The notes under the pieces: generated by a model | The model's database searches: none | Told to the model about the DNA's origin: nothing | The model's input: only the letters and a program-made list of their open reading frames with translations | Assembly (NCBI GenBank): GCA_031292145.1 | Contig: JARLHR010000140.1 | Span: 1 to 64,000 of the forward strand | From: Clostridium sp. | GTDB taxonomy: Bacteria > Bacillota > Clostridia > Clostridiales > Clostridiaceae | DNA: 64,000 nt | Direction: 5' to 3' | Translations under genes and position numbers: made by a program | In this document: positions 1 to 50,935 of the stretch, piece by piece | How positions within the stretch are numbered: position 1 is the stretch's first letter | Layout of the letters: every line of letters begins with the position of its first letter

Positions 1-183
1 AAAGCACTTAATGGGAGCTTGTTCAACATTAGCTTGTCACACTGAAAGTGGGAGCAAGCTAATGTTGATGCAAGCTCCCATTTAGTGCTTTCAGCGAAAT
101 TTTCATAGTCCTGCGTAACACAAATGTATTTGATTTCGGTAAGTTATTGCATAAGGCTAAGTCTTAAATTGGATATCTATAAT
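1..183 (+). repeat. Family-1 hairpin element, copy A (left end cut by window)
   Basis: The first 110 bases form a long imperfect hairpin: AATGGGAGC at 10-18 pairs with GCTCCCATT at 74-82, and AACATTAGCTTG pairs with CAAGCTAATGTT. It is followed by the family's conserved flank (TTTTCATAGTCCT, then TTTCGGT, then GCATAAG) and the end motif GGATATCTAT near 180. Six further full copies share these constant parts but have different helix sequences. The left end lies outside the window. Confidence 0.8.
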
Positions 184-320
184 CTATTTATAGATTGTTT
201 ATAAATCATTTATGAAAAAATTAGACATGACTTTTATAATTAGACTAGCTATTAATAATATGTTAAAAGTACCAATTTTTATTTGTTAATAGCTAAAAAA
301 TATAAAAGGAGATGCAAACT
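184..320 (+). other. AT-rich leader upstream of the first gene
   Basis: This stretch lies between repeat copy A and the first gene. It is very AT-rich and contains the gene's ribosome binding site AAAGGAG at about 305-311. No convincing promoter pair or structured RNA was recognised. Confidence 0.4.
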
Positions 321-1196
321 ATGAAAAGTAAAAAAATTAAAACCATTGTGATAACTGCAGTAGCAGGATGCATGCTATTGTCAATTACGGTAGCGGCATC
401 GGCAAGTAGCGGCTCAGGATATGACACATATAAAAGTGCAGTAAAAGATTTAATGAGTACTAGTAATGCTACGTTTTCAACTACTTTTGAAGTTAAAGAC
501 AATGGAAATGCTAATATTTCGGGGACTAGCGTAGAAAAGCTTGAAGATGCTAATATGTCTTCAGTTACAGATATTAAAAATGGGGATGCGGCAACTGAAA
601 CTGAAACAAGCAGGATAGATGGTAAAACGATTATAAAAAATGGAGACAATTATTATTCAAGAGATAGTAAGGGTAACGGAAAAAATGATAAAATGGAGAA
701 AAAATTTGATTCTTCATCAAGTAAGGCAAAACTAGAGGAAATGGTATTAGATACTTTAGTTGGAGATGTTAAAAACCAATTTGTTGTTGACGGGGATACA
801 ATTAGTGTAAATCTTGAAGGTACACAAATTCCGGAACTTGCTAAATTAGCTATTTCAGCTGCTGTAGAAGAAAGAAATAATAAAAAAGATTATAATAACA
901 AAGGCGGAACTGGAAACGATGGTTTTAAAGAGGCATTAAATAGTATACCAAATCTAAAAAATGTTGATATTAAATCATTGAGCATGACAGCCAAAGTAGA
1001 TGGAAATACATTGACTGAAAATGATGTTAAGGCTGTAATTAGCGGTGAAGACGAAAATGGTGTGTCTCATGAATTTGAAGTATCTGTTGATACAGCTGTT
1101 AGCGCTGTGAATTCTACAAAAGCAGATTCAATTGATACTACAGGTAAGCAAGTACAAACTTTGGCAGATAAATTTACACAACATAAAACAAAATAG
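321..1196 (+). CDS. Secreted protein of unknown function
   Basis: A 291-residue protein with a clear export signal: a Lys-rich start (MKSKKIK), a hydrophobic core and an Ala-Ser-Ala-Ser cleavage zone near residue 30. The mature part is rich in Ser, Asn, Asp and Lys and has no recognised catalytic motif. The ATG at 321 is preferred because AAAGGAG (305-311) sits 9 bases upstream; the in-frame ATG at 312 touches that site. A degraded copy of its 3' end lies about 200 bases downstream. The ABC transporter and two-component genes that follow are separated by 377 bases, so a functional link is only a possibility. I do not recognise the family. Confidence 0.7.
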   Translation: MKSKKIKTIVITAVAGCMLLSITVAASASSGSGYDTYKSAVKDLMSTSNATFSTTFEVKDNGNANISGTSVEKLEDANMSSVTDIKNGDAATETETSRIDGKTIIKNGDNYYSRDSKGNGKNDKMEKKFDSSSSKAKLEEMVLDTLVGDVKNQFVVDGDTISVNLEGTQIPELAKLAISAAVEERNNKKDYNNKGGTGNDGFKEALNSIPNLKNVDIKSLSMTAKVDGNTLTENDVKAVISGEDENGVSHEFEVSVDTAVSAVNSTKADSIDTTGKQVQTLADKFTQHKTK

Positions 1197-1364
1197 ATAT
1201 TAATATATTTATATCTATTTTAGAATTGGCAATTAACGAATATGGGTATGAGAGGTTTTTAGATAGATAAATTTAAAGGGTATTTTATCTTAAATTACCG
1301 ATTTTAATAAATACAAAAATAACATTTGGTTGAATTTTAACAGATTAATTTTTGAAGGAAAATA

Positions 1365-1432
1365 GATACAATTGATATTGTGATTAAACAAGTATAAACT
1401 TTGGAAGATCAATTAAGACATAAAGAAAAGTA
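1365..1432 (+). pseudogene. Degraded partial duplicate of the preceding gene's 3' end
   Basis: The stretch resembles the last ~70 bases of the secreted-protein gene (1124-1196). CAATTGATA, then AAGTA.AAACTTTGG.AGAT, then ACATAAA...AAAATAG-like text occur in the same order, now with an in-frame stop. It looks like the leftover end of a tandem paralogue or a local duplication. The rest of the 1197-1573 gap is AT-rich with nothing else recognised. Confidence 0.5.
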
Positions 1433-1573
1433 AAAAACATTAAAAAAGGGTTATATATTTATAATTAAACTTATGCAATTGAAAAATAATCGACATACTA
1501 TAATTTTTAATAATGTATAGGTCAAGTTATTAATATAAGCCCTTATAATTTTTGAAGTAAAGGAAGGGGTAGT

Positions 1574-2299
1574 ATGAAACCTGCACTTAAAGTTAATGGT
1601 TTAACAAAGATATATAAGAATGGTCGCGGAATTATGGATATATCTTTTGAAATAGAAGAAGGCGATATTTTTGGGTTACTTGGTCCAAATGGCTCCGGAA
1701 AAACTACTACTATGAAAATTATTACTGGCTTGTCTTATGCAGACAAAGGTAGTGTTCAAATATTAGGAAACGATATTTTAGAAGATGGTTCAAAAGTATT
1801 AAATGAAATGGGATGTCTTATTGAAGCACCAGCAATATACGAGTATCTTACAGCTAGAGAAAATTTACAGCTTGCAGCAAATTATTATAAAGAAATTAAA
1901 AAACCTAGAATAGACGATATTCTTACGCAGACAGGATTAATGAAGTATGCTAATGAGAAGGTGAAAAATTTTTCTTTAGGAATGAAGCAGAGATTAGGAA
2001 TTGCATTAGCCCTAGTTTCTAAGCCTAAAGTAGTAATTTTAGATGAGCCTACTAATGGTTTAGATATTGAAGGAACCGTAGAGATTAGAGAAATAATACT
2101 TAAGCAAGCAAAACTTGGGGTGACATTCCTTGTTTCCAGCCACATAGCCCATGAAATTGAGTTGATGTGCAATAAATTTGGTATTATAAAAGAGGGGAAA
2201 TTGTTAAAGACAGCATCAATGAAAAAAGCATTAGATGAATGTGGTACTTTAGAAAAATATTTTCTTAAATATGTTAGTGGAAAGGAGACGGAGGCATGA
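1574..2299 (+). CDS. ABC transporter ATP-binding protein (BcrA-type)
   Basis: A 241-residue cytoplasmic ATPase. Walker A GPNGSGKTT lies at residues 37-45, the ABC signature FSLGMKQR at 133-140 and Walker B VVILDEPTNGLD at 153-164, followed by the switch histidine in SSHIAHE. The layout matches the single-domain ATPases of ABC-2 exporters such as bacitracin or lantibiotic self-protection systems. A strong site GGAAGGGG precedes the ATG. Its stop overlaps the start of the permease gene by 4 bases (ATGA), so the two are translationally coupled. The substrate cannot be read from sequence; a kinase/regulator pair downstream suggests response to an envelope stress or an antimicrobial. Confidence 0.88.
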   Translation: MKPALKVNGLTKIYKNGRGIMDISFEIEEGDIFGLLGPNGSGKTTTMKIITGLSYADKGSVQILGNDILEDGSKVLNEMGCLIEAPAIYEYLTARENLQLAANYYKEIKKPRIDDILTQTGLMKYANEKVKNFSLGMKQRLGIALALVSKPKVVILDEPTNGLDIEGTVEIREIILKQAKLGVTFLVSSHIAHEIELMCNKFGIIKEGKLLKTASMKKALDECGTLEKYFLKYVSGKETEA

Positions 2300-3033
2300 A
2301 GCAGATAGAAGTGGGAATAATTAATGAAAGTACAAAATTATTTAAAAGGAATAAGTACAGAATATTATTAATTTCTATTGGAATTTTAGTTATAGCTTTA
2401 GGTTTATTGAGTAATTTTACAGAAGGTTATATGAATATTTCATTATCAAATCTTCCATTAAACGTTCTATCAATGTTAAATATTATATTTATTCCTTTGA
2501 TTTGCTTTATGGCAGTTGCTGATTTGTTTGCAGCAGAACAAGAAAATGGATCAATTAAAGCAATAATAACAAGACCTATAACTAGAAATGAAATTCTTAT
2601 TTCTAAGATGTTATCTATTTTAATTTATGTAATAAGCATTTTAACAGTAACATTTATAATAGGATCAATTATGGGAATAGTTTTTGGAAAAACACAAGTC
2701 ATAAGTATTCCACAGATTTTTACAGCATATGTTATGTCTATACTGCCTATAATACCAACAATTTTTCTTTCAATATTAATATCGCAATTATCAAGAAGTA
2801 GTTCATCTTCAGTAATGCTTTCGGTACTGATTTATATTATAATTATGTTAATTACAATAGTAATACCATCAATATCATCAATGGTATTTATTTCATATGC
2901 AAATTGGTATAAACTATTTATTGGAGCTAAAATGCCTATGAAATCAATTTTAACAATTATAGGATTATTTTTAGGATATTCTTTATTGTTTTTTTCTGGA
3001 GCATATGCATTATTTGAAAAAAGAGAATATTAA
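2296..3033 (+). CDS. ABC-2 family transporter permease
   Basis: A 245-residue integral membrane protein with about six hydrophobic segments (roughly residues 23-41, 56-76, 105-130, 145-165, 175-197 and 218-238). The motif AAEQENGSIKAIITRPI after the second segment is typical of ABC-2 permeases (NatB/BcrB-like). It overlaps the ATPase gene by 4 bases and should form the membrane half of the same exporter. Downstream, 93 bases separate it from the sensor kinase gene, with no terminator seen, so the four genes may form one transcription unit. Confidence 0.85.
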   Translation: MKQIEVGIINESTKLFKRNKYRILLISIGILVIALGLLSNFTEGYMNISLSNLPLNVLSMLNIIFIPLICFMAVADLFAAEQENGSIKAIITRPITRNEILISKMLSILIYVISILTVTFIIGSIMGIVFGKTQVISIPQIFTAYVMSILPIIPTIFLSILISQLSRSSSSSVMLSVLIYIIIMLITIVIPSISSMVFISYANWYKLFIGAKMPMKSILTIIGLFLGYSLLFFSGAYALFEKREY

Positions 3034-3126
3034 TTTTACATTCTGAATTGATAAATAAAACGTGGTACAGCCACTTTTGCTCTTAAAGTGATTAATTAAT
3101 AGATAAGCTGGGGGGATGCCTTAAAT

Positions 3127-4578
3127 ATGATGATAAAAAAACGTCTTGTTATTTCCAATATTCTTATGTTAATAGTTCCTGCAATATTAGTAGTAGTTAT
3201 TGCAGGTGGTGTCCTTGAAGGTTTTACAGAGATATATGGTAAGAATATAAAAGTTTTAGATGAAGGCAATGGAAGTTATTTTGTACAAAAAACTTTATAT
3301 TCTTATAGCAAGGAAATTAGAAATAATCATGAAGAAATTAAAGGAGATACGAAAGTTGAAGAAGCTCTTAAAAATGTAGGTTATAATTTAATAATTACTA
3401 ATGATGGAGATACTGTATTTTCCAACTTAACTGATGATGATAAAAATGCTATGTCTAAAATTCAAGAGGATATGCTTTCTTCATCGGATTCAATAGTACT
3501 CGAAGTTAATTCTATTAGCTTAGTTAAAAATAGTTTTATCAGAGATGGAAAAACTATTAATATGGTTGCTATTAAATCAAACAGGTTAGTGGGCAAACAG
3601 CAGATGAAAGAGGAGGTAAGAACCTTTTTTGTTAGTTATATGGGGATTGTATTTATAATAGCTTTGCTTATAATTATATTAACTAATGGTATACTATCAT
3701 CTCGTGTAGCTAAAAGCTTGATTGAACCTTTAGATTTATTAAGTTATGGTGCGGGACAGATAGAAGAAGGCAACCTTGATTTTAAAATGAACTATAAAGG
3801 TACAGATGAATTTGCTAAGGTTTGTGCTGATTTTGATAAAATGAGAATTAGGCTTAAGGAATCTGTTAATATGCAGTTAAAATATGAGGAAAATAGAAAA
3901 GAATTAGTTGCAGGAATATCTCATGATTTACGTACTCCGTTAACAACAATCAAGGGATATGCAAAGGGATTAAAGGATGGAATTGCAAATACGCCTGAAA
4001 AATGTGAAAGATACCATGAAATTATATATAATAAAGCTTGTGACTTGGATATGCTAGTGGATAAGTTATTTTTATTTTCTAAATTAGATACAGGAAAATT
4101 TCCCTTCAATTTTGAAAAAGTAAATTGTAATGATTTCTTTTCAAGCTTTTTTAATAGTGCTGTGGATGAATTTAAAGGAAAAGGCCTTGATTTAACTTAT
4201 GAAAATAATTGTGATGATAAGATTTTTATTAATATTGACTGTGAGGAAATACATAGAGTTCTTATTAATATACTTGAAAATAGTGTGAAATATAAAATAA
4301 AAGAGTATGGAAATGTAAGTATTACAACAAATAAAAGAGAAGATAGGATTGTTTTAACAATTAAAGATGATGGGCCAGGCGTTTCGGAGGAAAACCTCTC
4401 GCGTTTATTTGTAAGTTTCTATAGAGAAGATTCATCAAGAACTAATCCAAGTGAAGGCAGTGGACTTGGTCTTTCAATAGCTGAATATATAGTTAAAGCT
4501 CATGAGGGCACAATAAGAGCTGAAAACATGGATGGTCTTGCAATTATTATAACTTTACCTATTTTTCAACAAATATAG
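3127..4578 (+). CDS. Sensor histidine kinase
   Basis: A 483-residue membrane kinase. It has an N-terminal membrane segment (residues 8-28), an extracytoplasmic sensor region of about 135 residues, a second membrane segment (about 168-190) and a HAMP linker (about 190-245). The HisKA box ISHDLRTPL follows, with phospho-acceptor His266, and then the ATPase domain with N (ILENSVKY), G1 (DDGPG) and G2 (GSGLGLS) boxes. The large sensor separates it from the short BceS-type kinases. The start could be either of the two adjacent ATGs (3127, 3130), with GGGGGG upstream. It very probably phosphorylates the response regulator encoded 77-84 bases downstream. Confidence 0.9.
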   Translation: MMIKKRLVISNILMLIVPAILVVVIAGGVLEGFTEIYGKNIKVLDEGNGSYFVQKTLYSYSKEIRNNHEEIKGDTKVEEALKNVGYNLIITNDGDTVFSNLTDDDKNAMSKIQEDMLSSSDSIVLEVNSISLVKNSFIRDGKTINMVAIKSNRLVGKQQMKEEVRTFFVSYMGIVFIIALLIIILTNGILSSRVAKSLIEPLDLLSYGAGQIEEGNLDFKMNYKGTDEFAKVCADFDKMRIRLKESVNMQLKYEENRKELVAGISHDLRTPLTTIKGYAKGLKDGIANTPEKCERYHEIIYNKACDLDMLVDKLFLFSKLDTGKFPFNFEKVNCNDFFSSFFNSAVDEFKGKGLDLTYENNCDDKIFINIDCEEIHRVLINILENSVKYKIKEYGNVSITTNKREDRIVLTIKDDGPGVSEENLSRLFVSFYREDSSRTNPSEGSGLGLSIAEYIVKAHEGTIRAENMDGLAIIITLPIFQQI

Positions 4579-4655
4579 AACATATAAAGAGAAACACAAG
4601 TAATATGATTCTTGATTTGTGAATTGTAAACTGTTAACTGTATAAGGTGGGAGAG

Positions 4656-5360
4656 ATGGAAATGAGGAGAATACTTATTGTAGAAGACGATAAACTTATT
4701 GCAGAATTAGAAAGAGATTATCTTGAAATAAATGGATTTGAAACTGAAATTGCAATAAATGGAGATAAGGGATTGGAACTAGCACTAAATGAGGATTTTG
4801 ATTTAATACTTCTTGACTTAATGCTTCCAAGTAAAGATGGATTTCAACTTTGCAGGGAGATAATAAATAATAAAGAAATACCTATATTGATGGTTACAGC
4901 CAAAAAAGAATCCATAGATAAGATTAGAGGACTTGGTCTTGGGGCAGACGATTATATTGTTAAGCCTTTCGATCCAAGTGAGCTTGTAGCTAGAGTAAAT
5001 GCACATCTTTCTCGTTATGATAGATTAACTTCTATGGAAAAAAATGACGACCTAGAGCTTGGTGCGATAACTTTGGGAAGAGTAAAGATATTACCAAAGG
5101 CCTGGAGAGTATATGTGGATGACAAGGAAGTTAAATTTGCTAATAAAGAATTTGAATTGCTATTATTTTTAGCAACTAATCCTAATATTGTATTTTCTAA
5201 AACAACTCTTTTAGATAGGATTTGGGGATTAGACTCATTGGCGGATGTTGCTACTGTTACAGTACATGTCAATAGAATTAGAGAGAAGATTGAGGAAGAT
5301 AGCAGCAATCCTAAATTTATAGAAACTGTATGGGGTGCAGGCTATAGATTTAAAATATAG
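4656..5360 (+). CDS. OmpR/PhoB-family response regulator
   Basis: A DNA-binding response regulator of about 234 residues. The receiver domain has the acidic pocket VEDD, the phospho-acceptor Asp in LLDLMLPSKDG, the Thr in MVTAKKE and the Lys in DDYIVKPFD. A winged helix fills the C-terminal half (FELLLFLATNP to GAGYRFKI). Three in-frame starts compete: GTG 4647, ATG 4656 and ATG 4662. The AAGGTGG site at 4644-4650 favours 4656 or 4662. Its partner is the kinase just upstream; likely targets are this operon's transporter genes. The hairpin at the convergent end is shared with the next gene on the other strand. Confidence 0.9.
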   Translation: MEMRRILIVEDDKLIAELERDYLEINGFETEIAINGDKGLELALNEDFDLILLDLMLPSKDGFQLCREIINNKEIPILMVTAKKESIDKIRGLGLGADDYIVKPFDPSELVARVNAHLSRYDRLTSMEKNDDLELGAITLGRVKILPKAWRVYVDDKEVKFANKEFELLLFLATNPNIVFSKTTLLDRIWGLDSLADVATVTVHVNRIREKIEEDSSNPKFIETVWGAGYRFKI

Positions 5361-5383
5361 TTATAATTTTATAGGAAGTTATA

Positions 5384-5424
5384 TTAAAAAATGCTTAATT
5401 AGCATTTATGCTAATTAAGCATTT
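5384..5424 (-). terminator. Terminator of the phospholipase-like gene (minus strand)
   Basis: A 16-bp perfect stem (5389-5404 with 5409-5424) and a 4-base loop, followed on the minus strand by six T residues. The stem contains the last codons and stop of the minus-strand gene. It may also slow plus-strand transcription from the response regulator, although no T-run follows on that side. Confidence 0.8.
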
Positions 5425-6052
5425 GGGGACTTAAGATTTTTCTGTCTAGCCTTATGCGTGAGAAATGCAACTGTTTAGTACCATATGTAATACGATGTGA
5501 AAAATTAAAATTAAAGATAACAGAGCAAATAAAAGAACTAATTTCAATGCAGTTTGTAATATCCCAAAGGTAGGATTTATCACCTTTAACATAGTTAATT
5601 AATGTATTATAAAGTTCACTTTTTATTGAAGATACATCATTTAGAACTAAATTCTCGTTAGCTAAATTATTATGAATTTGATTTTTAATAATATCAAAAT
5701 TCTTAAATAAATATTTCTGCAACCCACGTTCATATTTTAAGTGATAGGAAATACTGCCGATTGAACCGGAAATATGAGAATGGCAACAAAAATCACAAAG
5801 GTAATGAACTACTATTCCAAGCTGCATAGAAGAATAAGCATTAAAATTTTTTATAGATAGAAGACTTTCTATTTTTTTATTAATATACTCAAGAGATTTT
5901 TCCATGTAATGAGGGTGAGTTTTAACCAGCCAACTTTGATCAACCATTACTAATCCAAAATTAAACATAAATTTGGAAAATCCTTTTGGAATAATATTAT
6001 TGTTTTTTATCAAAGACAATTTTGCCAATTTAACATGAGTGTTCACTTTCAT
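5411..6052 (-). CDS. Zinc-dependent phospholipase C-like protein
   Basis: A 213-residue protein beginning MKVNTHVKLAKLSL with no signal peptide. The core VVHYLCDFCCHSHISG, with an earlier HPHYMEKSL, has the spaced His/Asp ligands of the zinc-dependent phospholipase C / nuclease-like fold (PF00882). Many clostridia encode such short, leaderless members; their substrate is unknown. A site AAAGGAATG precedes the ATG. The gene stands alone and convergent to the two-component operon. The family assignment rests on the His pattern and size, so lipase activity is only inferred. Confidence 0.65.
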   Translation of the reverse strand: MKVNTHVKLAKLSLIKNNNIIPKGFSKFMFNFGLVMVDQSWLVKTHPHYMEKSLEYINKKIESLLSIKNFNAYSSMQLGIVVHYLCDFCCHSHISGSIGSISYHLKYERGLQKYLFKNFDIIKNQIHNNLANENLVLNDVSSIKSELYNTLINYVKGDKSYLWDITNCIEISSFICSVIFNFNFSHRITYGTKQLHFSRIRLDRKILSPQMLN

Positions 6053-12455: not shown

Positions 12456-12850
12456 GAAAGTATCTCCTTATTAAGTGGATTACGTTTTGTAAACCACGAT
12501 ATTTAAGCGCATTTATTAAACTTAATGGTATAACTACATTAGAAATAAGTAACATATTGTGTGGAGTGTTTCATTGGAATTTTTATGGTAATGATTCTTG
12601 ACTATAAGTTGTTCACAATATGTTTGTTCAAAGTTATCTTTGAAGCAAGCATTTTGGGCGCAACTTATAATCTTAGAAAAATCCATCTAAATCCTCAGCA
12701 ACTGGAGTAAATGCATGCACCTTATTTCGGCTTACACACATAAAATAATAAAGCACTTTTTACAATATATCAAGCAATATATGCACTATTTATTGCGAAA
12801 ATGTTGTATATAATGAGAGTATAACAAATTTATTACTTGGAGGAATAAAA
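12456..12850 (+). other. Divergent gap between the AraC gene and murE
   Basis: An AT-rich region of 395 bases holding the promoters of both genes. TATATAAT at about 12808-12815 is a plausible murE -10 box, and GGAGG at 12839-12843 is the murE ribosome binding site. No repeat, RNA or coding remnant was recognised. Confidence 0.4.
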
Positions 12851-22747: not shown

Positions 22748-22972
22748 ATGATAATAGTAAATTGTGCATTAAGACAAGATGATATTGTAAAAATAGTAGA
22801 AGAAATTGAAGTTGAAAATGAAAAAGTTTTTAAATTTCTAAAAAAAGAAGGTCTTAAACTGTGTTTCGAATGTAGCCTCGGCGATTCGGAAAAAGCTGCT
22901 TCGATTGCAAAACAAGCAATAAAAAATACGCCGCTTGGTAAAGCACTATTTTTTAATGTTAGTATACAATAA
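22748..22972 (+). CDS. Small protein of unknown function (74 aa)
   Basis: A 74-residue protein, start MIIVNCALRQDD, preceded by GGGGGAG at the right distance. It mixes acidic and hydrophobic residues, with two cysteines in LCFECSLGDSEKA and an Ala/Lys-rich C-terminal helix. No signal peptide or membrane segment is seen. No family was recognised. It stands alone between a terminator and the triple repeat cluster. Confidence 0.6.
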   Translation: MIIVNCALRQDDIVKIVEEIEVENEKVFKFLKKEGLKLCFECSLGDSEKAASIAKQAIKNTPLGKALFFNVSIQ

Positions 22973-22993
22973 TTAACACTTTGTGCCAGTAAT

Positions 22994-23284
22994 GATTATA
23001 GATACCCAAATGTGAATTTAGACTTATGTGGTGTCCTACCGAAATTCCATACATTTTTGTTCCACAGGACTATGAAATTTTCGCTGGAAGGTTCTAAGCA
23101 CAAGGTTGTGCCCATTTCTGCATGCTCCCAATATAAAATTTTGACAAGCAGTAAATGGTACAACCTTGCACTAAGAACCTTCACAGTTCAATTTCAAATG
23201 CCTGTTTCACAAAAATGTATGGAATTTCTAGTATGGAAATACATTCAAATTATAAATCAAATTTATAATTTGGGTATCTATATA
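22994..23284 (-). repeat. Family-1 hairpin element, copy B
   Basis: The ends TATAGATACCCAAA and TTTGGGTATCTATA are inverted repeats. The central hairpin has the family's constant pieces (read on the minus strand: TTGTACCA, GCTTGTCA, GGGAGCATGC, TGGGCACAA), with helix AGCACAAGG / CCTTGCACT specific to this copy. The GCATAAG-type end is on the left, so the orientation is minus. It abuts copy C. Confidence 0.8.
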
Positions 23285-23575
23285 GATAAACAACATATAA
23301 TCTAGAATTATGTTGTAAGAAACAGAACTTGGATAAATATGTGCTTCATAGGACTATGAAAATTGCGATAGAAGGTTCTAAATAGGTGGGTACACCCATT
23401 GTAGCATGCTCCCATTATTAAATGTGACAAGCTAAAGTGGAACACCTACATAATTTAGAACCTTCAACAGCTCATTTTCAAATGCCTATTTCACACATAT
23501 TTATCTAAGTTCTTTGTGCGGATACACACTTAATTAGAGCTAATTATAAGTATATATTTCCAACTATAAATCAAG
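23281..23575 (-). repeat. Family-1 hairpin element, copy C
   Basis: A near relative of copy F at 46071 over its whole length, including both flanks (CCAACTATAAATCAAG is the complement of the start of copy F). The hairpin helix TTCTAAAT / ATTTAGAA and the constant TTCCA, GCTTGTCACA and GGGAGCATGC pieces are present. Its left end shares a few bases with the end of copy B. Confidence 0.8.
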
Positions 23576-23596
23576 CATAGAATTTATGTTTCATTT

Positions 23597-23889
23597 ATTA
23601 TAGATAAACAATTTATGAATTAGATTTATACCTTGAAATATATACCAAACTAGAAAGAACTGGTGATCTTTTACGCAGTGTTGCATTGAGAATAAGGTTG
23701 TAGGTATTTCTTCAATAGAAATTGTTCCATTTTTGCTTGTCCTCAGCTCGTCTGAGGAGCATGCAGAAATGGGTACAACTTCTATTGTTAGAAATCCACA
23801 ACCTTATTCTCTAGCAACCGAGTAACAGATCACCAGTTCTTTCGGTAAGCTATAGCATAAGTCTAAGTTTTAGTTTGGATATCTATATG
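23597..23889 (+). repeat. Family-1 hairpin element, copy D
   Basis: The ends are TATAGATAAAC on the left and GGATATCTATATG on the right. The hairpin is the longest of the family: GAGAATAAGGTTGT pairs with ACAACCTTATTCTC, and the apical stem TCCTCAG / CTGAGGA caps it. The constant TTGTTCCA, GCTTGTC, GGAGCATGC and TGGGTACAA pieces are kept. Its right end overlaps the last codons of the DUF1275 gene. Confidence 0.8.
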
Positions 23890-24613
23890 CCTTATTCTCA
23901 TCTATACGGAATAACCCCAAACATAAAATTAATATTATTGCAGAAATCCATATTGATTTAACTCCTACCCATAAAGTTGATATTCCACCAATACATGATC
24001 CTACCAAAAATGAAACTATTATTATTGCATATCTAGTAGTATTTTCAGCTGATTTATTGTCTTTTTTAGTAAAGGCTATATATGCTGAATGACATGCAGA
24101 TCTTAAATTTCCAGTACACATTGTAGTACAATAAGGAGAATCCACTAAAGTTCTGAAGCAAGATATTTGAACAGATGAAACAAAAGAAATTGGAACCGTC
24201 ACAAATATATCAGGAATATTAGTTGGTATAAATCCTATAATAAAAAGTACAATTATCTCAATAGCTAGAATCAAACATTCTGAATTAGTAACAAAAGCGG
24301 CTGACGGTGATTTAAAATCTTTTATTTTTTCAGCGACTAAGGTACCAATTATAAACGCTAAAATTGGTAAGAATGCCATAATAGCTTGTTTAAAGTTTCC
24401 TTTGGTAAGTTCAATTCCAAATAAAACAATATTGCCTGTTTGGGCGTTAGCGAAGACTCCACCTCTGCAGACAAAAGTATAAGCATCTAAAAATCCACCG
24501 ACTATTGCGAGTAGAAATCCTAGCTTTAGAGATTGTGAGGTTTTAGTTTGTAATTTGAGTTTGTGATTATCATCATTTATAACATTAGTTATAAATGGAC
24601 CTTTAGTAATCAA
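23870..24613 (-). CDS. DUF1275 (YoaK-type) membrane protein
   Basis: A protein of about 247 residues with six or so membrane segments. The N-terminal GFLLAIVGGFLDAYTFVCRG and FANAQTGNIVLFG are the hallmark of the DUF1275/YoaK family, whose transport or other role is not established. The TTG at 24613 is preferred because AAAGGAG lies ten bases upstream; the ATG at 24634 overlaps that site and has none of its own. The last codons (AYRYPN and stop) fall within the end of repeat copy D, so the repeat has supplied or replaced the original C-terminus. Confidence 0.8.
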   Translation of the reverse strand: MITKGPFITNVINDDNHKLKLQTKTSQSLKLGFLLAIVGGFLDAYTFVCRGGVFANAQTGNIVLFGIELTKGNFKQAIMAFLPILAFIIGTLVAEKIKDFKSPSAAFVTNSECLILAIEIIVLFIIGFIPTNIPDIFVTVPISFVSSVQISCFRTLVDSPYCTTMCTGNLRSACHSAYIAFTKKDNKSAENTTRYAIIIVSFLVGSCIGGISTLWVGVKSIWISAIILILCLGLFRIDENKAYRYPN

Positions 24614-38480: not shown

Positions 38481-38765
38481 GGGAATATAATTAAAAATAT
38501 ATATTAATCATTAAAAGTACTTAAGTTTATCTTCAAACAAAGAAATTATATAAATGTTTATGAAATAGGCATTTGAAAATGAGCTGTTAAAAGCACTTGG
38601 TGGAAGGTTGTTCCACTTTAGCTTGTCTAAACTTTATATTTGGAGCAAGCTAAAGTGGATGCAACCTTCCACTTAGTGCTTTCAGCGATATTTTCATAGT
38701 CCTATGGAATAAACATTTATATAATTTCGGTTGATTATCGCATAAACTTAGCTTCTATGTGGTTA
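38481..38765 (+). repeat. Family-1 hairpin element, copy E
   Basis: The helix TGGAAGG (38601-38607) pairs with CCTTCCA (38665-38671). CCACTTTAGCTTG pairs with CAAGCTAAAGTGG inside it. The constant TTGTTCCA, GCTTGTC, GGAGCAAGC and TTTTCATAGTCCT pieces and the TTTCGGT...GCATAA end are present. It sits between clpX and lonB, genes otherwise neighbours in many Firmicutes. Confidence 0.8.
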
Positions 38766-44893: not shown

Positions 44894-44895
44894 GA

Positions 44896-44930: not shown

Positions 44931-45007
44931 ATGTCCAAAAACATAAACATTTTTATAATGATATACATATATTAAAAAGAGGCAATTATAGTTGAAAGGA
45001 TTTAAAA

Positions 45008-45556
45008 ATGGCTAAGCACAAACATAGAGAGCAAAATCCAATAAGAAATGATACAAATACGAATGCCAGTACCAATACCAATGCTAGAAATAATATACCT
45101 TTTGGAATAGACCCAATGCAATTGATGGGACTATTAGGTGGTAATTTTGATATGAATAATATGGGCAATATGTTAGCTTCAATGAATACAAATGGATTTG
45201 ATTTAGGAAATTTGAACTCAATAGCTCAAATGATGGGACTTAATTTGGATAATAACCTTTTTCAAGGTAATGTGAATAATCAAAATACTGATACTAATAA
45301 AAACTATTATCCTAATGTCAATAATCAGAATGTAAAAAAATATACTAATAGCACTAGTTCAAAAACTAATGAAAGTTCAAATGTAGATAGAAATAGCAAA
45401 AAGAATGAGAGTACTGGTAGTAGCAAATATACAAAAGATAATGACGCAAATTTAGAGTTTTTAGTCGCTTTAAGAAATCATATCCATCCAGATAGGATAA
45501 AGCTTATGGATAAAATTATTGAAGCTTACAAGAGCGGTGAATTTAATGATGATTAA
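45008..45556 (+). CDS. Asn-rich protein of unknown function
   Basis: A 182-residue protein. A basic start (MAKHKHREQNP) leads to Asn/Thr repeats (NDTNTNASTNTNARNN), a Met/Gly/Leu segment (MQLMGLLGGNFDMNNMGNML), an Asn/Ser linker and a conserved-looking C-terminal helix (LEFLVALRNHIHPDRIKLMD). Its place after two Cys-rich proteins suggests a shared spore-surface role, but nothing in the sequence proves it. GAAAGGA precedes the ATG. Confidence 0.65.
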   Translation: MAKHKHREQNPIRNDTNTNASTNTNARNNIPFGIDPMQLMGLLGGNFDMNNMGNMLASMNTNGFDLGNLNSIAQMMGLNLDNNLFQGNVNNQNTDTNKNYYPNVNNQNVKKYTNSTSSKTNESSNVDRNSKKNESTGSSKYTKDNDANLEFLVALRNHIHPDRIKLMDKIIEAYKSGEFNDD

Positions 45557-45565
45557 AAATTAAGT

Positions 45566-45797
45566 TTAAGCACAATCAAAAAAATAATAGACCAGTATGC
45601 TTGCCTATTTTGCACCATACTACGCCAGTAATTTAAGCTAATAGGTCCACTATGAGCATAAATTGCTTCCGTGTCTGGTATAAAGTGAAACTTTTCAGGT
45701 AGAATTTTACATTCTAGCTGAATTTAGTTGAACTTATCTAGTATCAGACAAAATATGCCTCGCATCTTTGAGCTATTATTTTTTTTATGTGCCTTAT
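45566..45797 (+). repeat. Family-2 element, long copy with covarying core
   Basis: The left end TTAAGCACAATCAAAAAAAT and the right end TTTATGTGCCTTA are inverted. The core stem AGTAATTTA (45627-45635) pairs with TAAATTGCT (45659-45667), and ATAC (45617-45620) pairs with GTAT (45678-45681). The loop is CTAATAGGTCCACTATGAG. It has an extra ~90 bases, absent from other copies, after the core. Confidence 0.78.
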
Positions 45798-46070
45798 TGA
45801 AAAATGTATATAAAATAAAAACATGTCAATAATACAAATGTAATAGAAATACATTCTATTATAAGCTTAATGAATTGTTGAGTTTAACTTGATTCAAGTA
45901 AAATTGAATCAAAGTGAATGAGTCATGATGAATTGTTATAACTTATTCTAATTTAGAAAGAATAAGTTGATGGTAAGTCGTGTTATTATTAATTTCATTA
46001 AGAGTATCCCCTCATCCCCCTTAGGCCGCATAATGCGGCCTTATATTATTTTAAGCTATCAAAATTTCCG
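45798..46070 (+). other. Gap with a GC-rich hairpin
   Basis: A 270-base AT-rich gap. AGGCCGCAT pairs with ATGCGGCCT at about 46023-46041 and is followed by TATATTATTTT. This terminator-like hairpin has no coding gene before it, so an unrecognised short transcript is possible. Confidence 0.4.
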
Positions 46071-46366
46071 CTTGATTTATAGTTGGAAATATATACTTAT
46101 AATTCGCCATGCTTAAGTGTGTATCAATGCAAAGAACTTAGATAAATATGTGTGAAATAGGCATTTGAAAATGAGCTGTTGAAGGTTCTTAATAGGTGAT
46201 TGTTCCACTTTAGCTTGTCACATTGAATAATGGGAGCATGCTAAAGTGGGTGCAACCACCTATTAAGAACCTTCCAGCGCAATTTTCATAGTCCTATGGA
46301 ACACATATTTATCTAAGTTCGGTTGACGACTACATAAGTCAAGAATACATGCTATATATCTATATG
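46071..46366 (+). repeat. Family-1 hairpin element, copy F
   Basis: Helix AATAGGTG (46191-46198) pairs with CACCTATT (46257-46264). Inside, CCACTTTAGC pairs with GCTAAAGTGG. The constant pieces TTGTTCCA, GCTTGTCACA, GGGAGCATGC and TTTTCATAGTCCT are present, and the end reads TATCTATATG. It is closest to copy C in the opposite orientation. Confidence 0.82.
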
Positions 46367-46368
46367 TC

Positions 46369-47298
46369 TTATTTAACCTTTTGTATAGAATTAATTTTAT
46401 ACGTAGAGCCAGTTTTCTCTAAATCAATTATTAGTATAAATTCAGTTTTATTACTTAGAGTACCCTTAAGATTACTTTTCTCAAAAGATAATCTCCATCT
46501 AATTGCATATGGTTCTCCTGATTGAGTCCATTTATAGTCGTAGAAGAAGCCATTTTGAAATGAATAAGAATAATTGTCTTTATCTAAGCTCCAAAGTAAA
46601 GATAAATTTTCTTTGTCAATAGCGGAAGTAAAAATATCTGGAAGATTATCAAGAATATATGGAAGTTCAACTATGTTAATAAAGTTTGTTACTGAATCTA
46701 ATGAAGGAACGCTAGAATTCTCTTTGCTAGTATCTAAAGTATAATCATTTATAAGCATAAAACTATTTAATGAAGAAAGTCCTTCAGATGATGATAATGA
46801 GTAACATTGAGGAGTTTTTGAATTTTTACAATCTAGTATACCAAAAATATTATTATTACTTGAGTAAACTAAAGCAAAATTTTTTTTATTCCAATGAAAC
46901 ACATAGCATGCGCTTTTATTGTTTTTAGAACCTTGAAGAATAATTTCAGGTATATTATCTCTAGAAATATCGTGAAGATAAATTTTAGGCTCCCAATGAG
47001 TGTTAGTATTAAAAAGTGTCTTATCTTTAATTTGATTTGAAAGTGAAAAACTATCGTTAGAACAAGTAATATTTAAATCAATTTTATTTTCAGCGTTTGA
47101 TAATTGCAAGGAATCCTTCTGTCCATCACCAGTTAAGTCAATTGGTGGTGTTTGAGAAATATTTACTGGAGATATAGTTTGTATTGATTTATATTTAATA
47201 GAAGTAAAGTAAATAATAACTGCACTTAATGTAATTGCTACTATTAAATACAATAATAAATTTATTAAAAGTTTTTTCTTAATTATTAAGATTTTCAT
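46369..47298 (-). CDS. Membrane-anchored protein with a Ca-binding-like repeat
   Basis: A 309-residue protein with one N-terminal membrane helix (residues ~12-32) and the rest outside the cell. IDLTGDGQKDSLQL near residue 55 and ISRDNIPEIILQG near 110 resemble VCBS/FG-GAP calcium loops (DxTGDGxxD). The remainder has no recognised motif. GAGGTGATAC precedes the ATG on the minus strand. The stop lies three bases from the end of repeat copy F. It is transcribed towards that repeat and has no other obvious terminator. Confidence 0.65.
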   Translation of the reverse strand: MKILIIKKKLLINLLLYLIVAITLSAVIIYFTSIKYKSIQTISPVNISQTPPIDLTGDGQKDSLQLSNAENKIDLNITCSNDSFSLSNQIKDKTLFNTNTHWEPKIYLHDISRDNIPEIILQGSKNNKSACYVFHWNKKNFALVYSSNNNIFGILDCKNSKTPQCYSLSSSEGLSSLNSFMLINDYTLDTSKENSSVPSLDSVTNFINIVELPYILDNLPDIFTSAIDKENLSLLWSLDKDNYSYSFQNGFFYDYKWTQSGEPYAIRWRLSFEKSNLKGTLSNKTEFILIIDLEKTGSTYKINSIQKVK

Positions 47299-47365
47299 TA
47301 TGTATCACCTCAGTAAATTATATGTTAATATAGAGATACATATTAATCATAATGAAATGATTAAA

Positions 47366-47412
47366 TAAAAAAAGACTATAACAATAAATAAAAATTCACT
47401 GTTATAGTTTAA
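47366..47412 (-). terminator. Terminator of the PerR-like gene
   Basis: On the minus strand, ACTATAACA pairs with TGTTATAGT around a ~17-base loop and runs into CTTTTTTT. Confidence 0.8.
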
Positions 47413-47420
47413 ATTAAGAT

Positions 47421-47828
47421 TTATTGACAATTGGTACAATAACCATAAAAATAAATCTTATTAGTAATAATTTGATAATCAGTATGCTCTTCAGCCAAAG
47501 AATTAAGATTATCTAAAGATAAATCTTTAAAATCATCAACTCTGCCACAGCCTAAACATTGTAAATGAGGATGAGGGGCTGAGTTTCCATCATATCTAAA
47601 ATTTCCTTCTCCAACGTTTATTTCTTGTATTAATTCAACATCAACTAGTGTTTTTAAAGCTTTATATACCGTGGCTAAACTCATAGTTGGGTATTGAATA
47701 TGAATATCTGTATAAATAACATCAGCTGAAGGGTGAGAAGTCGTATTTAGCAAATAATTATATACTGCAAGTCTTTGAGGAGTTAATTTTAGCTTTTTTT
47801 CCCTGAAAATTGAAGCTATTTGTTCCAT
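47421..47828 (-). CDS. Fur-family regulator, PerR-like
   Basis: A 135-residue metal-dependent repressor. The winged helix (LTPQRLAVYNYLL, SLATVYKALKTL) is followed by the metal site HPHLQCLGCGRVDD and the second cysteine pair CTNC at the very end, the structural zinc site. The Asp-rich regulatory segment DDFKDLSLDNL and the short length fit PerR, the peroxide sensor, better than Fur, but subtype assignment is uncertain. The ATTATAA at about 47863 just upstream looks like half of a Per box, suggesting self-control. Confidence 0.85.
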   Translation of the reverse strand: MEQIASIFREKKLKLTPQRLAVYNYLLNTTSHPSADVIYTDIHIQYPTMSLATVYKALKTLVDVELIQEINVGEGNFRYDGNSAPHPHLQCLGCGRVDDFKDLSLDNLNSLAEEHTDYQIITNKIYFYGYCTNCQ

Positions 47829-48228
47829 ATTTTACACCTCACTTTCAAATATTTTATTATAGATTATAACATAAATACAGAGATATAGTCAATTCAATTG
47901 ATTAAAATTATTCAATGATAATAGTTATTAATTATTATTTTATTAAATGATAAAAATTATTAATTAATTTTTATTAAATGATAATATATATTAAAAATTA
48001 ATTAAATTTTATAATTAACATATAAAAAAATTAAAATAATATTGTATGACTAGGAAAAGTCTGTTAAACTTAAATAAGAAAATGCTAATTGATTTACATT
48101 TTTTAAGGTATAATATTATATTAATTTTACAATTCCACAATGAGGATACTAATTTTTATTACAGACTTTTGATTATATAGCCTATGATAAAAATACAATA
48201 TTTTAATTTAATAAGGAGGCGTATTTTT
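47829..48228 (+). promoter_or_regulatory. Very AT-rich divergent region with a possible Per box
   Basis: About 400 bases, among the most AT-rich of the window. TTTTATTATAGATTATAAC at 47852-47870 contains one good Per-box half (ATTATAA). Imperfect copies of ATTAAATGATAA occur at about 47943 and 47975. GTATGACTAGGAAAAG and beyond hold no gene. Confidence 0.4.
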
Positions 48229-48546
48229 GTGGGAAAATATAAAGTTGGAGATGAATTAATAATAGTTAATGATCCCAATAAAGATAATGCAAAATTAAAG
48301 GAATTAACAACTTTAACTGTTGATGGAGATTTTGCTCAAATATCTTGGGGAATTAAAATTCTACAAGTAGAATATGATAAGCCAAATGTAACTTTGACTT
48401 ATAAAAATGCTAAAGGTGAAAAAAATAAAGTTTTTTCAGTATGCAAAGACATAGAAAACTTTGATAAAGAAAAAGTTTTAGAAAAAGCTTTACTTAGAGC
48501 TTTTCAAAATGAAATTATAAATATTTCAGCTGATAAAAACAAATAG
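48229..48546 (+). CDS. Small protein of unknown function (105 aa)
   Basis: A 105-residue protein starting at GTG, with a perfect AAGGAGG nine bases upstream. It opens MGKYKVGDELIIVNDPNKDN and continues with alternating β strands (ITWGIK-like ISWGIKILQVEYD, VTLTYKNAKGEKNKVF) and a C-terminal helix. It has no membrane segment. The upstream in-frame ATG at 48184 lacks a site. The fold looks like a small β-barrel, but no family was recognised. A terminator follows. Confidence 0.65.
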   Translation: MGKYKVGDELIIVNDPNKDNAKLKELTTLTVDGDFAQISWGIKILQVEYDKPNVTLTYKNAKGEKNKVFSVCKDIENFDKEKVLEKALLRAFQNEIINISADKNK

Positions 48547-48556
48547 TGAATTTATT

Positions 48557-48598
48557 ACAAGGGAGTAACTTTAATTTAAGGTTACTCCTTTGTTATTA
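48557..48598 (+). terminator. Terminator after the 105-aa gene
   Basis: AAGGGAGTAAC (48559-48569) pairs with GTTACTCCTT (48581-48590), followed by TGTTATTATT. Confidence 0.75.
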
Positions 48599-48699
48599 TT
48601 TAAATGTTATTCCATCAATTGGGAAAATGTTTACTTTTTATTTTAATTGTAATATAATGGAGTTATAAAATTGGAATTGAGAGAAAAGGATGAGGTATT

Positions 48700-48927
48700 A
48701 TGAGCAGATGTCCATTTTGGTCAACTAAAAGAGAAAAGATTGAATGTTATAATGAATGTCCTATACTAGGAACTGGATCATTGCAAGGTGAAGGTAATGA
48801 AAAGTGTGTTTTTCATGAATGCAGTGAAGAAAGTGACATAAGTTTTAGAGATAGTATAAAAGATGAATATAGTTTTCTTAATTTATTAATATATGACGAA
48901 GAAAAAAGTTTAAATATTAGTTATTAG
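48700..48927 (+). CDS. Small Cys-motif protein (75 aa)
   Basis: A 75-residue acidic protein. The N-terminal half has five cysteines: CPFWSTKREKIECYNECP and CVFHEC. The pattern CPFW...ECYNECP looks like a small zinc or iron-sulfur fold of a clostridial orphan family. The C-terminal half is acidic and helical. GATGAGGT precedes the ATG. No function can be named. Confidence 0.65.
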   Translation: MSRCPFWSTKREKIECYNECPILGTGSLQGEGNEKCVFHECSEESDISFRDSIKDEYSFLNLLIYDEEKSLNISY

Positions 48928-48944
48928 ATAATTAAAAAAGAAAT

Positions 48945-49010
48945 CAAAATTAAAATAATAGACCTAATACGCAAGTATACGGGTCTATTATTTTTTTATT
49001 GTGATTTAAT
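48945..49010 (+). repeat. Family-2-like terminator hairpin
   Basis: AAATAATAGACC pairs with GGTCTATTATTT around TAATACGCAAGTATAC and ends in TTTTTTATT. It closely resembles the inner hairpin of the family-2 copy at 9826, but the GGCACAATC ends are gone. It would terminate the 75-aa gene and, facing the other way, pncB. Confidence 0.6.
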
Positions 49011-49053
49011 ACTTTGATTAAAAATAAAAACTAACAATTTTATAGATATCGTC

Positions 49054-50538
49054 TTAATCCTGTGTTTCATATGAAGTTGTGTATTTATGCAATAAAGAAT
49101 GCTTTAAAGACCATAAATTCTGTGATAAATCAACATAATAAGTGTGAGGATTTTCAAATCTGAGCACTTCAGGCCATAGTTTTTCAGATTCAAGTTTAGA
49201 AAATTCTTTTATTTCTAAAACAGAAGGCGATTCATATATACATTTCCCACTATTAAATATTTGAACTTGAAGATCATTAGTATAATAATTTTTGATTTTT
49301 TTTCTCTTCCAAGTATGAATAGGATCAAATAATACCAAAGGTTCATTTTCAGTGATAACTTCATCTCTTAATGTAATTAAGTCAGCTAATGCCTTGTGAG
49401 AAGTCTTATCAAAAATTCTTATTATTTTCTTAAAACCTGGGTTAGTTATTTTTTCATTATTTTCGCTTATTTTTATTTTTGGAATTATTTCACCGTTATT
49501 TTCTAAGGCAACTAGTTTGTAAACACCGCCAAAAACAGGTTCTGATTTTGCTGTTATAAGTCTTTCACCAACTCCAAATGAATTTATGCATGCACCTTGA
49601 TCTAGTACATCTTTTATTATATGTTCATCTAGAGAATTTGAAATAACTATATTACAATCCTCATACCCAGCAGCATCTAACATTTTTCTGCATTTAGTTG
49701 TTAAATAAGTAATATCACCAGAATCGATTCTAACACCACGAGGACGTTTGCCAAGAGGCTTTAAAACTTCGTCGAATACTTTTATTGCATTTGGTATACC
49801 TGATTTTATAACATTATAAGTATCAATAAGTAAGACACAATCATCAGGATAAATTTCTGACCAAGCTTTAAAAGCATCATATTCAGTATCGTATAACTGA
49901 ACCCAACTATGAGCCATGGTACCTACAGCAGGAATGTTAAACATTCTATCTGACATAGTACAAGCAGTTGAACTACATCCTCCAATAATAGCAGCTCTAG
50001 CACCATAAATGGCTCCATCATATCCTTGTGCTCTTCGTGAACCAAATTCCATTACAGGACGACCATCGGCAGCTCTACAAATTCTATTAGCCTTTGTAGC
50101 AATTAAAGTTTGATGATTTATAGTTAAAAGAATCATTGTTTCAAGAAATTGCGCTTGAATTACAGGTCCACGAACAGTTACAAGAGGTTCGTTAGGAAAT
50201 ACAGGGTTTCCTTCTGGAACAGCCCAAACATCACAGCTAAATTCAAAATCTCTTAAATATTCAAGGAATTCTTCAGAAAAAGTATTTTTATCTCTTAGAT
50301 AAGTAATATCATCATCAGTAAATTTTAAATTTCTTAGATAATCTATTAATTGATCGACACCAGCCATTATGCAATATCCGCCACCGTCGGGAACTCTTCT
50401 GAAAAACATGTCAAAATAAGCTATTCTATCTTTAAGTCCTTTAGCAAAATAACCATTTCCCATAGTTAATTCATAAAAATCAACTAACATTGTTAAATTT
50501 CTTTCATCTCTTACATTGAATTTAGATTTATTATCCAT
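49054..50538 (-). CDS. pncB: Nicotinate phosphoribosyltransferase
   Basis: A 494-residue enzyme of NAD salvage that makes nicotinate mononucleotide from nicotinate and PRPP. LVDFYELTMGNGYF is the N-terminal signature. EFGSRRAQGYDGAIYGARAA holds the substrate residues, GTMAHSWVQLYDTEYDAF holds the phosphorylated-His region, and VRIDSGDI the phosphate loop. The length fits the bacterial long form. AAAGGAGAC precedes the ATG. It stands alone and divergent from the helicase gene, with repeat copy G between them. Confidence 0.94.
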   Translation of the reverse strand: MDNKSKFNVRDERNLTMLVDFYELTMGNGYFAKGLKDRIAYFDMFFRRVPDGGGYCIMAGVDQLIDYLRNLKFTDDDITYLRDKNTFSEEFLEYLRDFEFSCDVWAVPEGNPVFPNEPLVTVRGPVIQAQFLETMILLTINHQTLIATKANRICRAADGRPVMEFGSRRAQGYDGAIYGARAAIIGGCSSTACTMSDRMFNIPAVGTMAHSWVQLYDTEYDAFKAWSEIYPDDCVLLIDTYNVIKSGIPNAIKVFDEVLKPLGKRPRGVRIDSGDITYLTTKCRKMLDAAGYEDCNIVISNSLDEHIIKDVLDQGACINSFGVGERLITAKSEPVFGGVYKLVALENNGEIIPKIKISENNEKITNPGFKKIIRIFDKTSHKALADLITLRDEVITENEPLVLFDPIHTWKRKKIKNYYTNDLQVQIFNSGKCIYESPSVLEIKEFSKLESEKLWPEVLRFENPHTYYVDLSQNLWSLKHSLLHKYTTSYETQD

Positions 50539-50650
50539 AATAGTCTCCTTTAAAAAAATCCATTAAATAATTTCAGCTTAATAATTTTTATACAAAATAA
50601 TTATAAATTAGATATATAAACCTATTGTACATCTATAATACTTTGATTAC

Positions 50651-50935
50651 AATATAGTTGCTATAAACTTATGGTTATGCAAGACATTACCTAAATCAAA
50701 TACATTTTTATTCCACAGGACTATGAAAATATCGCTGGAAGGTCTAAATGTTAGGTTGTACTCATTTCTGCTTGTTCCAACTATTCAGTTGGACAAGTAG
50801 AAAATGGAACAACCTACCATTAAGACCTTCGGCAGCTCATTTTCAAATGCCTGTTTCATAAAAATGTATTTGATTTCTGGTGTGGATATGTACTTAAAGT
50901 TTAGTAAATGTGTATGAATGTTCCAGCAATAAATT
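50651..50935 (-). repeat. Family-1 hairpin element, copy G
   Basis: On the plus strand AATGTTAGG (50747-50755) pairs with CCTACCATT (50813-50821, one mismatch). The apical stem TCCAACT / AGTTGGA closes it. The constant pieces read on the minus strand are TTGTTCCA, CTTGTCC, GGAACAAGC and TGAGTACAA. The GCATAA-type end is on the left, so the orientation is minus. Confidence 0.8.

Follow-up and report, generated by a model that had tools for sequence, protein, structure and literature searches.

MITEs are usually viewed as two ends around a passive filler, and in REP/RAYT systems folded single-stranded DNA is recognised by a Y1 transposase. Any likeness of the family described here to REP/RAYT would be an analogy of working only, and the related enzyme in the present case is a DDE IS630 transposase, whereas that of REP/RAYT is Y1. 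Among the described bacterial repeats, RUP of Streptococcus pneumoniae is non-autonomous, has ends like those of IS630-Spn1 and has a predicted fold in which the ends pair with each other (PMC3049150). The CREE/NEMIS elements of Neisseria are short mobile inverted-repeat elements that form a hairpin in RNA, with mobility inferred from strain comparison (PMC2649163), and YPAL, ERIC and Bcr1 are dispersed intergenic repeats with a predicted fold, YPAL being ∼168 bp and Bcr1 ∼167 bp long (PMC2267715). As RUP is presented in that paper's main text, the present family shares with it the non-autonomous state and ends resembling an IS630 element; in a comparison of architecture rather than sequence, RUP is ∼107 bp and the present family ∼310 bp (PMC3049150). 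Unlike RUP as described there, the present family has a covarying core, several structural types and a core only loosely tied to its flanks, and the main text of the RUP paper has neither of the word stems "covari" and "compensat" (PMC3049150). Most CREE measure 104-108 or 153-157 bp, against ∼310 bp here, and the likeness is one of description only; the sections of the paper drawn on here do not describe the CREE core as a covarying hairpin (PMC2649163). YPAL, ERIC and Bcr1, likewise compared by description only, are like the present family dispersed and predicted to fold, and the main text of that paper does not contain "compensat" and mentions Clostridium twice (PMC2267715).

The Clostridium species group analysed here carries hundreds of short parasitic DNA repeats, each with a long hairpin, and 18 genomes were positive for the family. 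In the genome from which the window (the whole 64-kb stretch under analysis) is taken, the family is found at 150 places, 135 of them near full length, and a whole copy of ∼310 bp consists of inverted-repeat ends (TATAGATAnnCAA) flanking a single long quasi-palindromic hairpin. The seven copies reported by the first-pass annotation are all real, lie close to where it had placed them and are recovered by the covariance model; it overlooked an eighth, diverged copy (X). The copies in the window are as follows.

Copy A, 1-183, plus strand: type 1, core 1-131, right terminal repeat 169-181, truncated by the contig start.
Copy X, 12558-12722, plus strand: decayed type-3-like core, 48 bits.
Copy B, 22997-23282, minus strand: type 1, core 23047-23215, two terminal inverted repeats.
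Copy C, 23281-23575, minus strand: type 1, core 23331-23499, adjoining B, with the terminal TA common to both.
Copy D, 23599-23887, plus strand: type 2, core 23668-23835, apical module 23707-23793.
Copy E, 38481-38765, plus strand: type 1, core 38555-38722, decayed ends, with clpX on one side and a Lon-like protease gene on the other.
Copy F, 46071-46366, plus strand: type 1, core 46147-46314, flanked by convergent reading frames.
Copy G, 50663-50935, minus strand: type 1, core 50698-50864, decayed ends and approximate start, before a uvrD-like gene.

Copy A is incomplete because the window begins at base 1 of the contig. Copy D represents a second structural type, in which the basal loops differ while the apical module and the ends are the same. 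Copy G is present but had been drawn too long, its supposed first bases (AATATAGTTGCT) being host sequence that is also found in relatives.

We examined the fold in an alignment built from the window and loci L031-L120, a part of the 150 places, in which 112 matches were reduced to 101 distinct copies. One opposite-strand match (L053:1494-1660) and identical rows were removed before the later counts, the L053 match still being included in the covariation test on 102 distinct aligned rows. In these 102 rows, covariation was very strong: 97.6% of cells were paired and 39 of 59 pairs had changed on both sides. The covariation score was 0.363; shuffles gave 0.132, sliding the pairing gave no more than 0.072, and none of 500 shuffles attained any of the measures. 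Copies F, D and G, the three that were folded, were far more stable than their shuffles (z = -12.1, -14.5 and -9.7, respectively). In a second genome, 33/59 pairs had changed on both sides and 95.0% were paired, with helix 1 only 85.6% paired there; from G013, 54 of the 72 matches counted in all were used (52 distinct rows).

The loops proved less constant than had been thought. The four internal-loop pieces proposed as constant are all exact in D, but elsewhere the best fit is up to three bases off, and a large part of TTGTTCCA/TGGGTACAA belongs to a helix. Taken as a whole, the unpaired columns do not exceed the helices in constancy: mean conservation was 0.848 for both, a conservation of at least 0.95 was reached by 24/48 unpaired and 60/118 paired columns, and the unpaired columns contain 31 variants present in at least six copies. 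Near-invariance is limited to some loop positions. A search of the 64-kb window against 4,227 Rfam families at gathering scores gave no matches, and at relaxed scores, for 22900-24000 only, nothing but miRNA/snoRNA noise.

Inverted-repeat ends are present, as the first-pass annotation had proposed, but in less uniform form. Among the end-motif matches of the window the exact form TATAGATACC occurs in copy B only, and neither TATAGATA nor TATCTATA is found in exact form in copies E and G. Both ends are retained in 30 of the 101 copies (at most one mismatch per 8-mer), one or both being missed in the remaining 71 (decayed, cut or outside the searched range); preservation is better in the hairpin core, the supposed filler, than at the ends. 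Genome-wide, the end motifs were found 160 times, compared to 9 for a control pattern, and a search with a long end pattern allowing mismatches gave a single weak match. The ends start with TA, and adjoining copies have a single TA in common. Inspection by eye of the 30 both-ended copies revealed no duplication longer than TA, and the relatives differ too much for a precise empty site to be read.

At congener locus L302 (859-2058), a 1.2-kb IS630-family element adjoins a MITE copy. It contains two overlapping reading frames with HTH_33 and DDE_3 above their Pfam cut-offs, and with the NCBIfam IS630 models its DDE half scored 109.6 bits (cut-off 100) and its other half 79.9, below the cut-off. 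Its ends are identical to those of the adjoining MITE at 28/36 and 27/36 positions (background mean, 18.7). When full copies from the window's own genome were compared with this element, only 16/30 left and 18/30 right ends exceeded the 95% mark of the background, and the L302 element therefore counts as related to the mover, not as the proven mover. No DDE_3 (IS630) transposase was found in the draft genome of the window itself. On these sequence comparisons, the repeats classify as non-autonomous IS630-type MITEs. An IS630-family transposase would move them, or would once have moved them, in trans. Site E lacks the repeat in 14/14 relatives covered and site F has no covariance-model match in 13/13, the sole match in the stretches of the 14 relatives being at the G site of G023; sites that are occupied here and repeat-free in relatives point to mobility. 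Titles of open-licence papers yielded no description of the family, and 201 bases of copy F used as query had no match in plasmid and phage collections. The earlier statement that no named element matches stands as regards Rfam and a family name, but the class is known because the copies are IS630-type MITEs, and to that extent they do belong to the IS-derived repeats that the first-pass annotation had set against its own reading.

We compared the inheritance of cores and flanks. Five identical 172-nt cores lie within 10% diverged flanks; over the 10 pairs of these five copies, there were 0/1,720 substitutions in the core and 138/1,383 in the element flanks. The two halves of the core were correlated with each other (0.88 and 0.92), and the left and right flanks were not (0.03 and -0.02). 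Core-flank correlations were low yet significant (0.16-0.34; p 0.002-0.007), being depressed by private mutations in short flanks, with copies whose flanks were too short dropped (26/30 and 34/54 retained). With the same exclusion, L198 has a left flank as in L189 (0.92) and another core (0.815). L263 and L214 share an orthologous site occupied by different variants. A core is thus inherited only loosely with the flanks around it. Substitutions counted in four orthologous pairs were rarer in the cores than in their surroundings (6/669 versus 69/2,394; p 0.002), which also fits a function in place; the pairs L259/L268, L263/L214, L265/L205 and L284/L295 were judged visually and lie outside this count.

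Common variants preserve the pairs and on one strand accept G·U but hardly A·C, whereas private variants (in one or two copies) disrupt pairing freely. In the 101 copies of the window's genome, states found in one or two copies comprised 25 G·U and 30 A·C, compared to 14 and 2 among states found in at least three copies (p 0.0037). The corresponding counts in the second genome were 20/12 and 9/1, which is not significant alone (p 0.13), and 11 mismatch states in addition to the one A·C were also found there in at least three copies. For the two genomes combined, the contrast between G·U and A·C had a p of 0.0006 and that between paired and broken states a p of 5e-11, with the caveat that states common to several copies are not independent events. 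Taken together, this filter on common variants indicates that selection seems to act on propagating copies via one folded strand, be it RNA or single-stranded DNA. The first-pass proposal that selection maintains a fold, whether of RNA or of single-stranded DNA, is supported, and it is made sharper by the strand asymmetry of G·U.

The explanation that we consider probable is that these are IS630-kind MITEs whose core, folded as a single strand, helps propagation, with cores partly spreading or being homogenised separately. A single-stranded core, folded with a defined polarity, probably helps the element to propagate, since a filter for pairing on that strand is apparent among multi-copy variants and not among private ones. 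Cores probably also spread or become homogenised partly on their own, for which ectopic gene conversion between copies would be the simplest route. We lean slightly toward single-stranded DNA rather than RNA as the folded strand because of the absence of an own promoter and of bias relative to neighbouring genes. A further reading is that the hairpin core is selfish in its own right, copying itself between MITE shells and displacing resident cores, with IS630 transposition moving only the shells. The intermediate would be a folded single strand, DNA or RNA, whose polarity is fixed, and in such a parasite of two layers it would be structure, not sequence, that is inherited; we regard it as unlikely. 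Complementarity could arise without selection if template switching at the palindrome copied one arm onto the other. Indeed, the two sides of loop 3 in L005 are now perfect complements, the left arm of the first L284 copy is the complement of the family's usual right arm, and some single-copy states are fully paired (15/94 in the window's genome; 20/67 in the second genome). Such a process, however, would give common variants no one-strand preference for G·U over A·C, and it would wipe out non-complementary positions that are near-invariant and in fact persist. In the window's genome, 62 of 94 states seen in a single copy break a pair. As an account of the family, template switching is very improbable. 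The strand preference also bears on a double-stranded role, in which cruciform extrusion would juxtapose both ends for the transposase. The stem does sit between the ends of a short (∼310 bp) element, but both strands fold in a cruciform and G·U and A·C should therefore be accepted equally, which the common variants do not do, and we give this reading very little credence.

A domesticated host element, with the hairpin kept as an in-place 3′ UTR RNA (terminator, RNA stabiliser or RNase III site), agrees with the preference for 3′ ends, as of 76 copies with a gene on both sides 28 were in convergent, 4 in divergent and 44 in tandem contexts. It also agrees with the roughly 3-4 times slower change of cores than of their surroundings in the four orthologous pairs, and the Correia elements, which are described as binding RNase III, provide a precedent (PMC2649163). 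Avoidance of promoters, however, is equally expected of any tolerated insertion, and the tandem copies have no orientation preference (20 with and 24 against the genes). Relatives lack the repeat at sites E and F, and G·U is not preferred among the rare variants of the window's genome, although those of the second genome do lean that way. Promoters were not enriched: in the 90/101 copies kept after those with too-short flanks were dropped, the mean best score for a promoter of the sigma-70-like type, the only type sought, was 8.44 in the left linker, compared to 8.53 on the reverse strand and 8.56 in shuffled sequence. We consider domestication rather unlikely, and a host-regulatory RNA less likely than a selfish role.

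What is new here is the strand-specific pair filter on common variants, together with cores that are loosely inherited with their flanks. If confirmed, the role of single-stranded structure in the movement of a DDE transposon derivative becomes testable, as does the separate propagation of repeat cores and ends. With its many natural copies, the family offers a large set in which selection on structure can be told apart from palindrome correction. It also serves as a warning that covariation in a bacterial repeat family does not have to mean a host regulatory RNA.

We also compared the orientation of copies with replication, the origin being assumed at coordinate 1. Among the matches listed, 49/57 copies in G012 lie against the assumed fork. 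The counts in four further genomes, again among the matches listed, were 32/58, 23/39, 18/28 and 16/25, none significant alone; pooled, 89/150 of these listed matches lie in the same direction as in G012 (p 0.03), and a weak general replication-strand lean is possible.

All seven hairpin-repeat copies reported in the first-pass annotation (A to G) are present in the window (G000:C22:1-64000, from a 6.34-Mb low-G+C draft genome), and a covariance model trained on 27 copies from this genome detected an eighth, decayed copy (X) at 12558-12722. A full copy measures ∼310 bp: the terminal inverted repeat TATAGATAnnCAA is followed by a linker, then by a single long, imperfect hairpin (the core) and, after a short linker, by the other terminal repeat; abutting copies have one TA in common (23281). 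There are at least three structural types, with common ends and apical module and a different basal part:

Type 1: window copies A, B, C, E, F, and G
Type 2: window copy D
Type 3: the eighth copy, X, loci L063 and L015, and others

At least 150 places in the window's genome match the model, 135 of 150 scoring at least 144.9 bits among the matches listed, although some lie at contig ends and may represent one copy counted twice. Searching with another model, built on the apical part common to all types, again gave at least 150 matching places and added some that are missing from the first model's listed matches (e.g., C253:3960 and C97:25655).

We conclude that these repeats form a genuine, strongly covarying superfamily of MITEs (nonautonomous repeats), found only in one Clostridium clade among the genomes searched here and bearing no name in the sources searched. 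The element class is known; the selected core is unusual. The three copies folded (D, F, and G) were far more stable than their shuffles. Two-sided changes that preserve pairing were seen at 26 of 59 pairs in an unguided alignment of 27 copies and at 39 of 59 when 102 distinct rows were fitted to the model; in the latter, 97.6% of cells were paired, compared to 85.0% after shuffling and 37.6 to 48.2% after sliding. A further genome, G013, supplied 52 distinct rows; there, 33/59 pairs had changed on both sides and 95.0% of cells were paired, helix 1 being weaker (85.6%). The annotation had described constant loops between varying helices. The helix covariation was borne out, but the loops are not more conserved overall: mean conservation is 0.848 in paired and unpaired columns alike, and about half of each class reaches at least 0.95. 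Some loop positions are nevertheless near-invariant, among them G-n-A opposite G-n-A (columns 8 to 10 and 162 to 164, with the middle position free), CATT opposite TAGT, T73, C78, and GGA. The opposed GnA motifs suit sheared G·A pairs, which form in RNA as well as in DNA.

We binned pair states differing from the commonest state by the number of copies carrying them. Among 101 copies in the window's genome, single-copy states comprised 38 mismatches, 24 A·C, 17 G·U, and 15 Watson-Crick pairs, whereas states in at least 6 copies comprised 33 Watson-Crick, 5 G·U, 2 mismatches, and no A·C. The G·U:A·C ratio was 25:30 for states in 1 to 2 copies versus 14:2 in at least 3 copies (p 0.0037); in G013 it was 20:12 versus 9:1 (p 0.13), and paired:broken states there were 45:40 versus 32:12 (p 0.037). 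Both genomes combined gave p 0.0006 for G·U/A·C and p 5e-11 for paired versus broken, all these values being indicative since column states are not independent events. Our reading is that mutations arise largely irrespective of pairing, whereas most variants found in several copies preserve pairing on the modelled strand. Template-switch correction alone could be proposed to keep the arms complementary, and such correction seems to happen now and then (loci L005 and L284). However, it treats the strands alike, as does a symmetric cruciform, in which both are equivalent; the common variants are strand-asymmetric and the pairing filter fits the modelled strand, which argues against both.

Cores and flanks appear to have partly different histories. 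Five copies in genome G023 have identical 172-nt cores and element flanks that are 10% diverged (10 pairs: 0/1720 substitutions versus 138/1383). Agreement between the two core halves was 0.88 over 26 copies of G023 and 0.92 over 34 of G013, whereas core and flank agreed weakly yet significantly (0.16 to 0.34) and left and right flanks not at all (0.03 and −0.02); private flank mutations depress flank correlations, so these figures probably overstate the decoupling. At L198, the left flank is that of L189 (0.92), the right flank agrees at 0.76, and the core is another (0.815). An orthologous site (L263/L214; 713 bases on the left side 95.5% identical) carries a different variant in each species. 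Constraint in place contributes to slow core change: in four orthologous pairs, 6/669 core sites differed, compared to 23/600 in element flanks (p 0.0005) and 69/2394 outside (p 0.002). As the sole cause it does not readily account for L198 or for five cores that show no difference at all; ectopic conversion or core replacement would explain both. Separately, half a type-2 hairpin has been replaced by a type-1 copy in one species (L265 about 700-1290 versus L205 5570-6290). The join lies near the hairpin apex, and the relative (L205) keeps the entire type-2 copy; the replacement could be a trace of hairpin cleavage and repair.

By BLAST, the E-site flanks lie close together in 14/14 congeners and the F-site flanks in 13/13 whose stretch extends there, with another repeat at the F site in G049. 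In the syntenic stretches of the 14 congeners the covariance model had one match, at the G site of G023, a copy with a different core and a deletion. DDE_3 had no match in the window's own draft genome and matched in 14/67 genus genomes searched, 11 of them above the cut-off. One element (L302, genome G002) is 1,200 bp long with HTH_33 and DDE_3 domains and is IS630 by NCBIfam, its HTH half falling under the cut-off. Its ends match those of the adjoining MITE at 28/36 and 27/36 positions (the average for random AT-rich ends that begin with TATAGATA is 18.7 of 36); it is joined to that MITE by a common TA and has no hairpin core. Against 30 full copies of the window's genome the likeness is looser, at 14 to 31 (left) and 17 to 28 (right) of 36, with 16/30 left and 18/30 right ends above the background's 95% mark. 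On this evidence the family is an IS630-type MITE, and its relation to the IS630-family element resembles that of RUP to IS630-Spn1 (PMC3049150).

The strand asymmetry is compatible with either RNA or single-stranded DNA. There is evidence against the core being an RNA gene, as a promoter search of the left linker of the copies found no enrichment, and against an RNA acting on neighboring genes, as tandem-gene contexts are 20 co-oriented versus 24 opposed. Of 76 copies flanked on each side by a called gene, 28 sit between convergent genes and 4 between divergent ones, a skew that fits mere tolerance. We lean slightly toward single-stranded DNA as the folded strand. In genome G012, 49/57 copies (at least 100 bits) are oriented against the assumed replication fork; four other genomes lean weakly the same way (89/150 pooled among the matches listed), none significantly alone.

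A search with strict filters that scored the best 19 candidates in each genome found the apical module in 18/225 genomes of the order and 1/56 genera; DNA like copy F was found in 16/68 genomes of the genus. Among named genomes, the repeat occurs in C. beijerinckii HUN142, C. chromiireducens, Clostridium sp. LS, and the Bacillota MAG BP5.bin74. At 22997-23887 in the window and in at least six of 30 loci (L002, L005, L008, L009, L014, and L025), copies stand back to back as oppositely oriented pairs or follow one another in abutting series, often of mixed types. In several species, some cores (type 1 and other types) carry within one arm an additional hairpin module (GAACCCAAATC...GAGTCGAG-like), which is either a repeat nested in the core or a further structural variant:

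L203 6984-7040, additional hairpin module
L205 6042-6099, additional hairpin module
L206 2722-2778, additional hairpin module
L295 729-786, additional hairpin module
L142 1710-1767, variant of the module
L373 1442-1498, variant of the module

A 47-bp remnant (L132 1501-1547; G000:C26:18540-18586) retains the two terminal repeats, but the hairpin core is gone, together with most of its left flank. At L268 541-697, a second repeat of ∼157 bp (GCCCTAAGGCAC ... CAAGTCCATTTGCCAGCC-like), apparently unrelated, adjoins a MITE; it is inserted in one of two close genomes, being absent from the orthologous L259, and similar sequence flanks L085. Six contigs of the window's genome (C13, C17, C22, C23, C61, and C164) start or stop within a copy, the pattern that assembly breaks caused by the repeat would give. 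Real copies (at least 123.8 bits) lie on 8/9 IMG/VR contigs examined (L248 to L253, L255, and L256), so the repeat also occurs within, or next to, sequence predicted to be viral or proviral.
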